Shown here: positions 15,732-44,802 of the stretch, one piece after another
Layout of the letters: each line of letters opens with the position of its first letter
Position numbering within the stretch: position 1 is the stretch's first letter
Origin: Phycisphaerae bacterium
Lineage (GTDB): Bacteria; Planctomycetota; Phycisphaerae; Phycisphaerales; SM1A02
Assembly (NCBI GenBank): GCA_018657585.1
Contig: JABHWX010000102.1
Coordinates: 1-45,307 of the forward strand
Direction: 5' to 3'
DNA: 45,307 bases
Translations under genes and position numbers: made by a program
The notes under the pieces: model-generated
What the model saw: only the letters and a program-made list of their open reading frames with translations
Database searches by the model: none
What the model was told of the DNA's origin: nothing

Positions 15732-15983
15732 CGTTGAAGTAGAATCGAATACCTTTGAAGGGCAATCTTCTCTTGATGTATGAAATTGAGGTTTTAGGAT
15801 ATTGAAACCATCGTAAAACGCATGAATTGCCTATCCTCCCACTTGTTGAGTCCGATAACGAGAGCTTGGATTAGCTTGTTCTTTTGTATATATTGGGTGG
15901 TTCGCTGCATTTTTGACGAAAAAAAATAGTTCGTGCCCTTAAACCAATTGCAATGTTCTGCAGTCAGACCATAATGCCGACTT

Positions 15984-17585
15984 ATGCCGTGGCGGTTCTA
16001 CCGATACATGCTGTTTGACGTGCTGCGGCAATTTGCCATTACAGCCACCATCCTCGTAATTGTTGTTGCCTTTGGTGCGGCGATAAAACCTTTATCTAGT
16101 GAAAATTTGGTGAGCGGCTGGGACACCTTAAAGTATCTGTTTTTAGCAATAATTCCAATGCTCCAATTCGCATTGCCATTTGCAGGAGCATTTGCAGCAA
16201 CTATTTGTCTGCATCGAATGGCACAAGATAATGAGTTTATAGCGATGGCAGTTTGCGGACAATCATATATTCGTTTGCTAGCTCCAATGGCATTTTTTGG
16301 TGTGGTACTAACAATCATTGTTGCTGTATTGACGCAATCAATTATTCCAATGTTTATCGGAAAGATGGCGCAGGCTATCACCGCTGATCTCCCAAAACTT
16401 TTGAAGAGTTCCATTGAGCAAGAAACGCCTTTTGTACAGGGTGATTTAGTTATTTGGGCAAAGGATATTTTTCCAGGAGCAGATGGTCAGGAGGAGCGAA
16501 TGGCGCTTGACCAAGTTGCAGTAGCAAAATTAGACAGAGATGGAAGTGCCTCTATGTACTTCACCGCCTCAGCAGCAGTCATCGATATTGCGAGAGAGAA
16601 CAACGTAACTTCGCTTTCAGTAGAGATGAGAAATACTACACAGTGGACGCGTAGTGCAGAGGGAGCAGGAGTTTTAAAGGGTGCTCCCGAGGGTCGTCTC
16701 ACACACGAAATAAACTTACCTTCTTTAACCAATCAAAGGCTTACAGCACTGTCGATGGGTGATTTAAGAAATTTGCAAGAGCATCCTGAAGAATACAGTT
16801 ATGTAAAAAAAGCTGCAATTTCGTTAAAAACAAATCTATCGATATACGAATTTCAAACATCTATTCATAATCAAGTGGCTGAGACGGGGGAATTACAATG
16901 TGTTTCAGATGAAGGTGATCGAAGGTTCGTTATTGAGGCGGATGGATTTGATGAAGGGTTGTTTGTTGCTCCAATTAGAGTGACAGCAATTACCGATAAT
17001 GGCGATCGAAATGTACTGAATCCCGAACGAGCTTCGTTGGAGACTGAATTTGAACTAGGGGTGCTCCAGTCCACGACCTTAGTGATGAGAGATGTCGTTG
17101 TTGGAGTAGGAAAAATTGGTGAGAACCAGCGAGGCGAAATAGTGATCCCCTCATTGCAGATAATGGGGCTTTCTACTCAAGATGTTTCAGAAGTTGTTTC
17201 AACCCAATCTTTGCTTCAGCGTGGCGATCAATTGTCCCCATACAATCTAAGAATCAAAAATTCAGCAGCTAATTTGCGTAGGCATATTGTCGCGCTTGAT
17301 AATCATGTCGCTGGTCGAATCGGCCAGCGTTGGGCAGTTAGCATGTTGCCATTGCTTGCGATTCTGCTTGGAAGTGTTTTGGCTATTCGGTATACAAATA
17401 AGATGCCACTTGAGGTCTACGCACTAGTATTCGTGCCAGCAGTTATAGCCTTACTACTGGTTTTTTCTGGAGGCCAAATGATTCGGGACGCGAACGTTGG
17501 AACCGGTTTTTTTGTAATGTGGATTGGAAACATTGCACTTGTACTGTTTGTTATTTTGAACTGGTTAAAGTTGAGGGCAACTTAA
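15984..17585 (+). CDS. LptF/LptG (YjgP/YjgQ) family permease
   Basis: 533 aa; paired TM blocks at both ends with a large periplasmic domain; followed 1 nt later by a second permease. Confidence 0.85.
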   Translation: MPWRFYRYMLFDVLRQFAITATILVIVVAFGAAIKPLSSENLVSGWDTLKYLFLAIIPMLQFALPFAGAFAATICLHRMAQDNEFIAMAVCGQSYIRLLAPMAFFGVVLTIIVAVLTQSIIPMFIGKMAQAITADLPKLLKSSIEQETPFVQGDLVIWAKDIFPGADGQEERMALDQVAVAKLDRDGSASMYFTASAAVIDIARENNVTSLSVEMRNTTQWTRSAEGAGVLKGAPEGRLTHEINLPSLTNQRLTALSMGDLRNLQEHPEEYSYVKKAAISLKTNLSIYEFQTSIHNQVAETGELQCVSDEGDRRFVIEADGFDEGLFVAPIRVTAITDNGDRNVLNPERASLETEFELGVLQSTTLVMRDVVVGVGKIGENQRGEIVIPSLQIMGLSTQDVSEVVSTQSLLQRGDQLSPYNLRIKNSAANLRRHIVALDNHVAGRIGQRWAVSMLPLLAILLGSVLAIRYTNKMPLEVYALVFVPAVIALLLVFSGGQMIRDANVGTGFFVMWIGNIALVLFVILNWLKLRAT

Positions 17586-20505: not shown

Positions 20506-20949
20506 ATGAATGTACAAACGACTCGTTTCGGAACAGTCGAAGTTGACGACAGCAGAATCCTAGAGTTTCCCTCTGGGTTACTTGGCTTCTCAAGTTATAC
20601 GCAGTACGCACTTCTTCAACCAGACAACGATGGGTTATTCTTTTGGTTGCAGTCAACAGAGGCTGCAGAGTTAGCGTTCGTAGTAACCGATCCCTCCACG
20701 TGGGTTCCTGATTACCAAGCAACTGTTAGAAAAGAACAGATGGAAGATTTACAGCTTTCAACCCTAGAAACTGCGCAGACTTTTGTAATTGTAAATAAGT
20801 ATGACCAAACATTGACCGTTAATTTGCAAGGTCCAATTATCGTAAATTTAGCTAATCACCAAGCGATGCAATTAGTACTTGCTGACAAGAGGTGGACAAC
20901 TCGGCACGAAATCGTACGGCTCACTACACAGGAACGATTGACTGCATAA
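20506..20949 (+). CDS. fliW: Flagellar assembly factor / CsrA antagonist FliW
   Basis: 'TTRFGTVEVDDSRILEFPSGLLGFSSYTQYALL...FFWLQSTEAAELAFVVTDP'; upstream of csrA. Confidence 0.92.
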   Translation: MNVQTTRFGTVEVDDSRILEFPSGLLGFSSYTQYALLQPDNDGLFFWLQSTEAAELAFVVTDPSTWVPDYQATVRKEQMEDLQLSTLETAQTFVIVNKYDQTLTVNLQGPIIVNLANHQAMQLVLADKRWTTRHEIVRLTTQERLTA

Positions 20950-20968
20950 TTTTGAATAGACCATGCGT

Positions 20969-20986
20969 TCGCCCAGGGAAGGGCGA
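20969..20986 (+). promoter_or_regulatory. csrA leader hairpin with GGA in a hexaloop (candidate CsrA-binding site)
   Basis: TCGCCC-AGGGAA-GGGCGA. Confidence 0.5.
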
Positions 20987-21030
20987 CAGAGCTGCTTTTA
21001 TAGCAGCGTACCTTGAGGAAGGATCCTAAC

Positions 21031-21264
21031 ATGCTAGTGCTATCACGCCATAAAGACGAGACAATTATGATTGGTGACGACATTGAATTAACAATAGTTG
21101 ACATCCGAGGCGATAAGGTGAGGGTGGGAATTAAAGCCCCTTCTTCAATTCCTGTACATCGCAAGGAAGTTTACGACGCTATTCGAAAAGAAAATGAGGG
21201 TGCTTCAACCTTCGAGCGTTCTGACTTGAACGAGATTCCACCACCACGTATTGCCCGATTCTAG
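21031..21264 (+). CDS. csrA: Carbon storage regulator
   Basis: 'MLVLSRHKDETIMIGDDIELTIVDIRGDKVRVGIKAPSSIPVHRKEVYDAI'; SD GAGGAAGGA just upstream. Confidence 0.97.
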   Translation: MLVLSRHKDETIMIGDDIELTIVDIRGDKVRVGIKAPSSIPVHRKEVYDAIRKENEGASTFERSDLNEIPPPRIARF

Positions 21265-32114: not shown

Positions 32115-32274
32115 GCTTACTCTTGTGAAACGCAAAAGCCGTGCCGTTCCAACCCCCTTTTTGTACTGTCAGAGCACATTTTTTACTTCTTCCGACTGCC
32201 TACTTGGCAGTCGATCTATAAGGTATTTTGATACGACACTCAATTGCTTGTAGGTGGTAGTATTCCCGACACCT

Positions 32275-33708
32275 ATGACTTACAAAACAAAAGCGACATT
32301 ACTGAGTTCAATTCTAAAGGATTTAGGTGGGGCGAGAACACCCGTTGGGGAGACTATTACCGTGCAGGGTTGGGTGCGTTCTAGAAGAGATTCAAAAGCG
32401 GGCTTATCGTTCATCCAGATTTCTGATGGGAGTTGTTTTGATTTACTTCAAATAGTTGCAAATAATGAGTTAGAAAATTACGAATCTGATGTATTACGAA
32501 TTACCACTGGGGCTTCGCTCGAAGTGACCGGTGAACTTGTAGAGTCTCAAGGCAAAGGGCAATCAGTAGAGTTGCAAGCGTCAAGCGTGAAGGTATTAGG
32601 GTTTGTAGAAGACCCAGATACGTATCCTGTCGCAGCAAAACGTCATACGTTCGAGTATTTGCGAACAGTTGCGCACCTTAGAACACGGACTAATACTTTT
32701 GCAGCACTTGCTAGAGTTCGTGATTGTTTGTCTCAAGCAGTTCATAGATATTTTCATAACAACCAATTCTTATGGGTACACACTCCTCTTATAACAGCTA
32801 GTGATTGCGAAGGCGCTGGTGAGATGTTCAGAGTATCAACACTTGATTTAGTGAATACGCCAATGACAGAAGAAGGAAATGTTGATTTTGACAAGGACTT
32901 TTTTGGGAAAGAATCTTTTTTAACAGTTTCAGGTCAGATTAATGTCGAGTCGTATGCATGTTCAATGAGCAGGGTGTACACCTTTGGCCCAACATTTCGT
33001 GCAGAAAATTCCAATACTTCAAGGCACCTTTCCGAATTTTGGATGATTGAACCAGAGATTGCTTTTGCAGATTTAAACGACGATGCCGATCTCGCTGAAG
33101 ACTTTTTGAAATCTATATTTACTGATTTGCTTAATGAGCGCTCGGACGATATGGAGTTCTTTCAACAACGAATCGACAAGGGGTGTATTGAACGGTTAGA
33201 GAATTTTGTTTCTGCAAGTTTTGAGCGAATGGAATACACGGATGCAATTACTGAGCTTGTAAAAGCCCAAGAGTCTGGAACAAAATTTGATTTTCCGGTT
33301 GAGTGGGGATGCGATTTACAATCGGAACATGAGCGCTGGTTAACTGATGAGCATGTAGGCAGACCTGTTGTTTTAATGAATTATCCTAAAGAGATAAAAG
33401 CCTTTTACATGCGGCTGAATGATGATGAAAAAACTGTTGCAGCAATGGATGTTTTGGCGCCCGGAATTGGTGAAATCATTGGTGGCTCTCAACGTGAGGA
33501 GCGATTAGAGGTGCTTGATCGAAGGATTGAAGAATGCGGTTTAGATTTGGAGCCGTATTGGTGGTACCGCGATTTACGCAAGTACGGTAGCGTGCCACAT
33601 GCTGGGTTTGGGCTTGGTTTTGAAAGAACAATCCTATACGCAACAGGAATGACCAACATTAGAGACGTTATTCCATTTTCGAGAACTCCTCGAAATTGTG
33701 ATTTTTAA
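32275..33708 (+). CDS. asnS: Asparaginyl-tRNA synthetase
   Basis: '[24 protein letters not shown]', '[47 protein letters not shown]', '[36 protein letters not shown]'. Confidence 0.97.
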
Positions 33709-33782
33709 GCAACAGACGTCCTATAACACTTTTTTATTACCGGTGAATCTTTGTTTATTCATGAATAAACAGGGTTATTTGA

Positions 33783-33992
33783 AACCAATCCTTTGATTTT
33801 GACGCTTCCTATATTCACGCAGATGGTCATGGCGGAGCGATCTTCTTAGGATTCCCAATTGAAGCTATGGCATCTGAGAGCCAGCCGCAATTGCTTACTG
33901 AAATCTCCGTTTGGATTGGCGGAGTTGAACCTCTTGCCCAACTGATTGCAATGGCGATGGCGTGCAACATTGCAGCCAATCGGTGTATTTGA
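33783..33992 (+). pseudogene. Start-less remnant of a secreted/amidase-associated protein C-terminus
   Basis: Open frame without a start: NQSFDFDASYIHADGHGGAIFLGFPIEAMASESQPQLLTEISVWIGGVEPLAQLIAMAMACNIAANRCI*. Confidence 0.5.
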
Positions 33993-34200
33993 TCAAACAA
34001 TCTATTAATCGGCGTCTGTTTTATCTTGTGAAGTACCAGTGGTTTACACTAACGAGGCAGTCCGATAATTGCATATCTAAAAATACACTCATGGCGCTTG
34101 TTTGGCTAAATGGGCACTAGACCCTCGTCCGATATCGCAAGAATTTTAAGATGTTTGATATTTGTCGAGAGAAGTTATGCCTACAAACGATTGTTAGTGA

Positions 34201-34307
34201 GTCCTTGGTTCAAGTTGCCATTGGTTGGCACTCCAAGGACGCTGTCTTTGACAGTTACTTTCCCGAGCTTCGTGGATAAGAAGCTCATGACGCAAAAGGG
34301 GTTTTGC
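34201..34307 (+). promoter_or_regulatory. Structured leader: four consecutive hairpins upstream of the B12-fold gene
   Basis: GTCCTTGG/CCAAGGAC with inner TGCCA/TGGCA; CTGTC/GACAG; GAGCTTC/GAAGCTC; GCAAAA-GGGG-TTTTGC next to the GTG start. Confidence 0.6.
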
Positions 34308-34308
34308 T

Positions 34309-35013
34309 GTGAACACTGATACTTTTATCGAAAAACTATTTCCACTTCTCATTACTGGCGATCGCAAGTCAGCTCGCGCGTGTGTCGCCGAAGCAATTAC
34401 TTGTGGTTGGACACCTGAAGAAATTTCAGAGAACGGTTTCTGGCCAATTCTAGATTCAATCAATACTCTTTATAGAAGTGATCAAATGACAAGCGTTGCG
34501 CATCACTACGCAACTCGCCTTCTTCGAAGTCTTGTCGATCAAGTGCAAGCAGGGTACACACAAAAGAATTCAAACAACAAATCAATTCTACTTTTCTGCG
34601 GTCCCAGTGAATCGGACGATCTAGCAGCGCAAATTGTTGCAGACCTTTGCGAAGCAGATGGCTGGGATGTTCGCTTTGGTGGCGGAGGTGTTCCATCGGA
34701 TGAAATTCTTGCAGAAACAAACGAATGCAAACCAGATGCACTATGTATGTTCTCATCAGCACCTTGTGATGCACCGCATATCCGAAATATAATAGATACA
34801 GTTAAATCAGTTGGGGCTTCGCCACATACCCAGATAGTTGTTGGCGGTGGGCTCTTCAATCGGGTCGAAGGTCTCGCAGAAGAAATTGGTGCAGATTTAT
34901 GGGCAAGTACACCAGCAGACTTGAAAACAAAAATTACAACAGAATCAGAGAGACGCGCAACGGAGGAACAGCGAACAGTTGGTCGAAATATTCGTCCTAG
35001 CAAAGCAGCATAA
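34309..35013 (+). CDS. B12-binding-fold regulator-like protein (degenerate cobalamin motif)
   Basis: Helical N-domain 'FWPILDSINTLYRSDQMTSVAHHYATRLL' and Rossmann-like C-domain 'SILLFCGPSESDDLAAQIVADLCEADGWDVRFGGGGVPSDEIL...QIVVGGGLFN'. Confidence 0.75.
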   Translation: MNTDTFIEKLFPLLITGDRKSARACVAEAITCGWTPEEISENGFWPILDSINTLYRSDQMTSVAHHYATRLLRSLVDQVQAGYTQKNSNNKSILLFCGPSESDDLAAQIVADLCEADGWDVRFGGGGVPSDEILAETNECKPDALCMFSSAPCDAPHIRNIIDTVKSVGASPHTQIVVGGGLFNRVEGLAEEIGADLWASTPADLKTKITTESERRATEEQRTVGRNIRPSKAA

Positions 35014-44502: not shown

Positions 44503-44690
44503 CTTTACTCACCTTCGTATCCAAGGACCAGCCACATATTGTTGGAGTACAACCGTTTAATATGCCACATAACTAGTGCAAAATCGATATAAAACTGTGT
44601 TAATTATCCATCTTTTTCTTTTACCGTCCGATAGGCACAAATAACCGTGTTTTTGTAAAAAGACATGAGTGAAACGATCTGCTTTTCGAC

Positions 44691-44727
44691 TAAAAGAGCC
44701 CCGCATTTAATATGCGGGGCTCTTTTA
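44691..44727 (-). terminator. Terminator downstream of tRNA-Pro
   Basis: TAAAAGAGCCCCGCAT-TTAAT-ATGCGGGGCTCTTTTA, 16-bp perfect stem. Confidence 0.9.
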
Positions 44728-44728
44728 G

Positions 44729-44802
44729 TCGGGGTGACAGGATTTGAACCTGCGGCCTCTTGTTCCCAAAACAAGCGCTCTGCCAAGCTGAGCTACACCC
44801 CG
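44729..44802 (-). tRNA. tRNA-Pro (anticodon TGG)
   Basis: CGGGGTGTAGCTCAGCTTGGCAGAGCGCTTGTTTTGGGAACAAGAGGCCGCAGGTTCAAATCCTGTCACCCCGA folds as a cloverleaf; anticodon loop TTTGGGA. Confidence 0.96.

Follow-up and report, generated by a model that had tools for sequence, protein, structure and literature searches.

Sequence comparison gives good support for a conserved, structured cis-regulatory leader, with the core of the Shine-Dalgarno (SD) sequence in a hairpin loop, upstream of a gene encoding a B12-binding-fold protein (34309–35013, + strand; 234 aa, GTG start codon). The gene lies in the 45,307-nucleotide stretch analysed here (the window), which belongs to a 1.9-Mb genome whose named relatives are Phycisphaerae/Phycisphaerales MAGs. 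The region is interpreted as the 5' untranslated leader, approximately 170 nt long, of the B12-fold mRNA, and it would act in cis on translation. Our preferred reading, to which we assign a probability of roughly 0.4, is that the leader is a translational operator that presents the SD in a hairpin loop and has a GGA hairpin of the CsrA type next to it. The region adds a selected regulatory leader, new to Rfam, before a photocobilin/CarH-like sensor gene of uncultured marine planctomycetes.

Structure and conservation of the leader

A first-pass annotation had described four back-to-back hairpins followed by the GTG at 34309, and every coordinate matched the sequence. On the + strand, these hairpins are P2 (34201–34240), in which the arms GTCCTTGG and CCAAGGAC (34201–34208/34233–34240) form the outer stem P2a around the nested stem P2b; P3 (34242–34254, CTGTC-TTT-GACAG); P4 (34265–34286, GAGCTTC-GTGGATAA-GAAGCTC), whose loop contains a GGA at 34274–34276 that is a candidate CsrA site; and P5 (34292–34307, GCAAAA-GGGG-TTTTGC), which closes one base before the start codon. 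The same annotation had placed an SD-like tract in the last hairpin; the core GGGG is indeed unpaired in the loop of P5, whereas the longer AAGGGG lies partly in the 5' arm and partly in the loop. The RNAfold check that it had proposed, carried out on 251 nt (z -2.36), recovered the stems of all four hairpins in the MFE structure and again in the centroid structure. The closing pair of P5 has a probability of 0.96 at 37°C.

Such a density of hairpins is rare in the window. The 111-nt stretch that holds them contains 23 bp in non-overlapping perfect hairpins, compared with a window mean of 3.3, and this content was equalled at only one other place in the 45 kb, where a terminator-like hairpin and a tRNA are found (approximately 44.7 kb). 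The MFE of the stretch was -43.6 kcal/mol versus -22.5 ± 5.6 for window tiles, three of 754 of which were as low.

The leader, taken from GTCCGATAT to the GTG, was compared among 12 same-genus orthologs. Its mean identity was 75%, versus 49% at the fourfold-degenerate sites of the B12-fold gene, and leader identity exceeded fourfold-site identity in all 66 genome pairs. Blocks that are invariant or nearly so include GTCCGATAT, TTTGTCGAG (34161–34169, + strand; invariant in the 12 genus genomes and found as TTTGTCCAGC in related genera), CGATT, the TGGAT of the P4 loop, and the entire P5, which occurs without mismatch once per genome. The CGATT is part of a conserved CGATTGT block (34188–34194, + strand), the last four bases of which (34191–34194) form the 5' strand of a tentative closing stem, P1, with its 3' strand at 34287–34290; one P1 pair is GC in five, AU in four and GU in two of the 12 sequences. 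A pseudoknot between the P4 loop and the CGATTGT block, which was judged by eye and had no covariation, was rejected.

In the alignment of these leaders (A2), 92.6% of the cells pair, and pairing fell to 45% when the partner was shifted by one base. Six pairs were changed on both sides, in 14 cells, versus 2.9 and 4.5, respectively, in shuffles; the 12 sequences are related, and these cells are therefore non-independent events. Covariation was contributed by P2a and P2b, both with compensatory changes; by P3, in which 100% of the cells are paired and a UA pair is changed to CG in three sequences; by P4, with compensatory changes in two pairs; and, tentatively, by P1. P5 never varies and is therefore uninformative by covariation. 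Stems without conservation or covariation at orthologs had been named beforehand as the outcome that would speak against a functional leader; conservation and compensatory changes are both present.

A covariance model built on the leader (R1) gave one strong match per genome in 12 of the 13 genus genomes, always at the B12-fold gene, and the remaining genome (G009) lacks both the gene and the leader element. In the rest of the family, including the family leaders, R1 detected nothing convincing; matches outside the genus had E values of 0.2–0.7, were located on other contigs and were discarded. By comparison of orthologs, the hairpins are thus shown to be selected RNA structures tied to one gene. 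An overlapping 69-aa frame spans the leader region in the window, as might be expected if the region were an unrecognised coding region, but in relatives the frames are interrupted by stops and by indels whose length is not a multiple of three. Together with the conservation and covariation, these comparative data refute a coding or uORF origin as well as chance formation of the hairpins, to which we give hardly any credence.

It is also conceivable, if improbable, that the structured leader works without a dedicated trans-acting regulator and sets mRNA stability, holds translation at a fixed low rate or unfolds in response to temperature. The SD hairpin P5 has marginal stability that depends strongly on temperature (-7.6 kcal/mol at 4°C and -3.7 kcal/mol at 37°C), which fits such a role; however, temperature dependence of this kind is common to every short hairpin, and a regulator-free leader leaves the invariant P4 loop and the enrichment of GGA in relatives (see below) unexplained.

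Upstream elements, known RNAs and the downstream gene

The probable 5' boundary of the leader is the promoter-like element GTCCGATAT (34127–34135, + strand), which is invariant in the 12 genus genomes and located 182 nt 5' of the GTG; transcription would begin just 3' of it. A second promoter-like copy, the exact match GTCCGATAA, is present at 34060–34068 (+ strand), and GCCGATAAT precedes the main copy in some same-genus relatives. The motif GTCCGATA was found in 17 of 41 family/order leaders, versus 0.1 in shuffles, and CCGATA-type elements in these leaders have a median distance of 178 nt to the start codon. Within the window, GTCCGATA occurs four times versus 0.68 expected, all on the + strand, and it is often intergenic. 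In two relatives, 10 of 11 intergenic copies are oriented toward a codirectional gene, a clear bias, but in the window's own genome the count is just 11 of 18 and the bias is not significant. For this reason the motif is termed only promoter-like, although a promoter role is likely.

We take GTCCGATA to resemble the FliA -10 element GCCGATAA, and a FliA/WhiG-family sigma factor is encoded in 25 of the 25 genomes searched. A canonical FliA promoter was nevertheless not adopted as an interpretation, because no TAAA -35 element was found at the leaders. Elsewhere in the window, GTCCGATAA also occurs at 15850–15858, in an intergenic and codirectional position 134 nt 5' of a gene for a 533-aa membrane protein (15984–17585). 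At 44626–44738, in the interval that separates a convergent gene from an opposite-strand tRNA, GTCCGATAG precedes a long GC-rich hairpin (ACTAAAAGAGCCCCGCAT...) by approximately 60 nt; this locus is possibly a small RNA or a bidirectional terminator.

At gathering thresholds, Rfam identified just one tRNA in the window, located elsewhere, and no described RNA at the leader. A permissive search of 33709–34400 (E up to 5) yielded three sub-threshold matches, none of them to a riboswitch and none within 34127–34311. On these searches, a cobalamin riboswitch, for which the first-pass annotation had seen no canonical B12 box, and any other Rfam RNA were rejected as the identity of the leader. The literature search found no report on Phycisphaerae riboswitches or on the leader of the B12-fold gene.

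A genus-specific metabolite riboswitch would be a junction aptamer of P1 to P4 in which the 3' strand of P1 abuts P5 and the ligand stabilises the closed state. The junction-like layout, the conserved unpaired blocks, the covarying P1 pair and the platform-like SD hairpin P5 are consistent with it, and a covarying conserved structure 5' of a gene is what a riboswitch of unknown class would present. We consider it unlikely, since the leader is absent from Rfam and confined to one gene in one genus, and P1 is weak and was not predicted when the window sequence was folded alone.

Pfam matches to B12-binding_2 and B12-binding confirmed that the gene downstream of the leader encodes a B12-fold protein. 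Orthologs are present in 57 of 61 relatives and in 159 of 181 family genomes. The protein has a fold match to photocobilin and CarH-type modules, the nearest solved folds being photocobilin, the B12 domain of a MerR-family protein, AerR, CarH and the AppA SCHIC domain. The DxHxxG motif for cobalamin binding by an axial histidine is absent from all 22 aligned orthologs, which makes this mode of cobalamin binding unlikely. Upstream of the leader, the interval at 33820–34000, which follows an asnS-like gene (32254–33708), contains what seems to be a degenerate remnant that includes an NGDG-type stretch, and in several relatives the gene 5' of the leader seemingly ends in an NGDG...DLLAVVGSWG tail. 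A plasmid search returned no match.

The motif QRTVG is invariant at the C-terminal end of the 22 orthologs, where it begins a basic tail (QRTVGRxRR), and this arginine-rich tail is disordered in the structural model. It is possible that the B12-fold protein binds to the leader of its own mRNA, perhaps by this tail, and represses its own translation, and the restriction of the leader to the B12-fold gene is in keeping with such an autogenous operator. We regard this as quite doubtful, since the protein has no known RNA-binding domain and, between genera, the tail QRTVG is kept whereas the leader sequence diverges, so that leaders of more distant orthologs are no longer alignable. A broader formulation, in which the leader represents an undescribed class of regulatory RNA in marine Phycisphaerae, either a junction that senses a metabolite or an operator to which the histidine-less B12-fold sensor itself binds, with P5 as the translational switch, is itself rather unlikely.

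GGA hairpins and the CsrA-FliW pair

CsrA binds GGA in hairpin loops, with the site consensus RUACARGGAUGU, and bridges sites 10–63 nt apart; it is antagonised by FliW, and the two proteins classically target flagellin (PMC7652899). Both genes are located in the window: fliW at 20506–20949 (+ strand; Pfam FliW, 2.9e-35), a probable part of the circuit, and csrA at 21031–21264 (+ strand; Pfam CsrA, 2.4e-24), the product of which is the candidate regulator of the leader. fliW and csrA are present in 13 of 13 genus genomes, each of which has two csrA homologs, one of those of the present genome being the copy in the window. No flagellin was detectable in the 13 genus genomes, though fliW-csrA is kept.

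The csrA leader (20961–21033) has a GGA hairpin followed by a second hairpin, with the SD GAGG within CCTT-GAGG-AAGG. The loop of the first hairpin is AGGGAA, and ATGGAA or AAGGAT in relatives; four pairs of its stem are altered on both sides among 13 genomes and the loop fits ANGGAN. The csrA leader resembles a textbook site of CsrA autoregulation. Among flagellin leaders of relatives (L170–L199), several have the SD in a hairpin directly before the ATG, for example GACAATC-AAGGAG-GATTGTC, as would be expected for CsrA control. Because of the covarying csrA hairpin and these flagellin SD hairpins, it is very probable that a CsrA able to bind GGA loops is at work in the genus.

A GGA in a hairpin loop is a hallmark of CsrA sites. 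The notion that GGA is a shared feature came from GGAT loops seen by eye in related leaders, and it was checked by scoring all 64 trinucleotides. In the hairpin loops of the 41 family/order leaders, GGA was the most over-represented of the 64 (40 versus 14.8 ± 3.4). Under a strict definition, 30 GGA hairpins were found in 23 of the 41 leaders, versus 5.4 ± 2.6 in shuffles, which corresponds to 3.66 per kb as compared with 0.58 per kb elsewhere in the same genomes; control leaders of other genes had 0.74 per kb, in 6 of 58. Among 32 leaders held out from the set in which the idea arose, 12 GGA hairpins were found in 10 leaders, versus 3.6 ± 1.8, an enrichment that is weaker, with none in several genera, yet above controls (p 0.015). 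These leader sets include one or a few leaders per genus, and some relatedness remains among them. An A two bases before the GGA was not enriched in the wider leader set, and the SD is AAGGAG in several other genera.

In the leader of the B12-fold gene, the GGA lies in the P4 loop, with TGGAT invariant and compensatory changes in the stem. The first-pass annotation had suggested either an undescribed cis-regulatory leader or a protein-binding operator. The former stands, on the strength of conservation, compensatory changes, a single copy at the gene and absence from Rfam; the latter is favoured by the GGA hairpins and by CsrA and FliW, which supply a candidate regulator on the evidence of sequence. 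With moderate confidence, we consider CsrA to be the likeliest effector. CsrA would dock on the P4 GGA loop, approximately 22 nt 5' of the SD GGGG, and either stabilise the closed SD hairpin or block the 30S subunit, and FliW would relieve the repression, as in other CsrA-FliW systems.

Several features argue against CsrA. The P4 loop fits neither ANGGAN nor, closely, RUACARGGAUGU: it reads GUGGAU, with G instead of the preferred A two bases before the GGA, in 11 of 12 genomes and AUGGAU in L004 only, and it is 8 nt long. P4 is the sole GGA hairpin of the leader in the genus, and no second GGA site was found at the SD or close by it at a distance that CsrA could bridge, the SD loop being GGGG in 12 of 12. 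The structure of P1 to P3 also exceeds what CsrA would need. If the CsrA reading is true, the CsrA-FliW circuit persisted after flagellin was lost and is used for a B12-fold sensor, and the role of FliW and CsrA in bacteria without flagellin becomes directly testable in vitro.

Comparison with known systems

Like cobalamin riboswitches (Rfam RF00174 and relatives), the leader precedes a gene with a B12-binding fold; it differs from them in its unrelated architecture and in having no match to them even in the permissive search. Another counterpart within the genus is the leader of csrA, which likewise consists of a covarying GGA-loop hairpin and then an SD able to sit in a short hairpin, although the csrA loop fits ANGGAN and the P4 loop is GUGGAUAA. 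The leader departs from the CsrA-repressed leaders of B. subtilis hag, where FliW takes part, and E. coli glgC in its GGGG rather than GGA at the SD loop, in the G two bases before the P4 GGA (11 of 12), in its additional hairpins P2 and P3, and in its target, which is a B12-fold gene and belongs to a genus that lacks flagellin. It shares with them a GGA hairpin loop shortly 5' of the SD, a structured SD region, and the presence of CsrA and FliW in the same genome.
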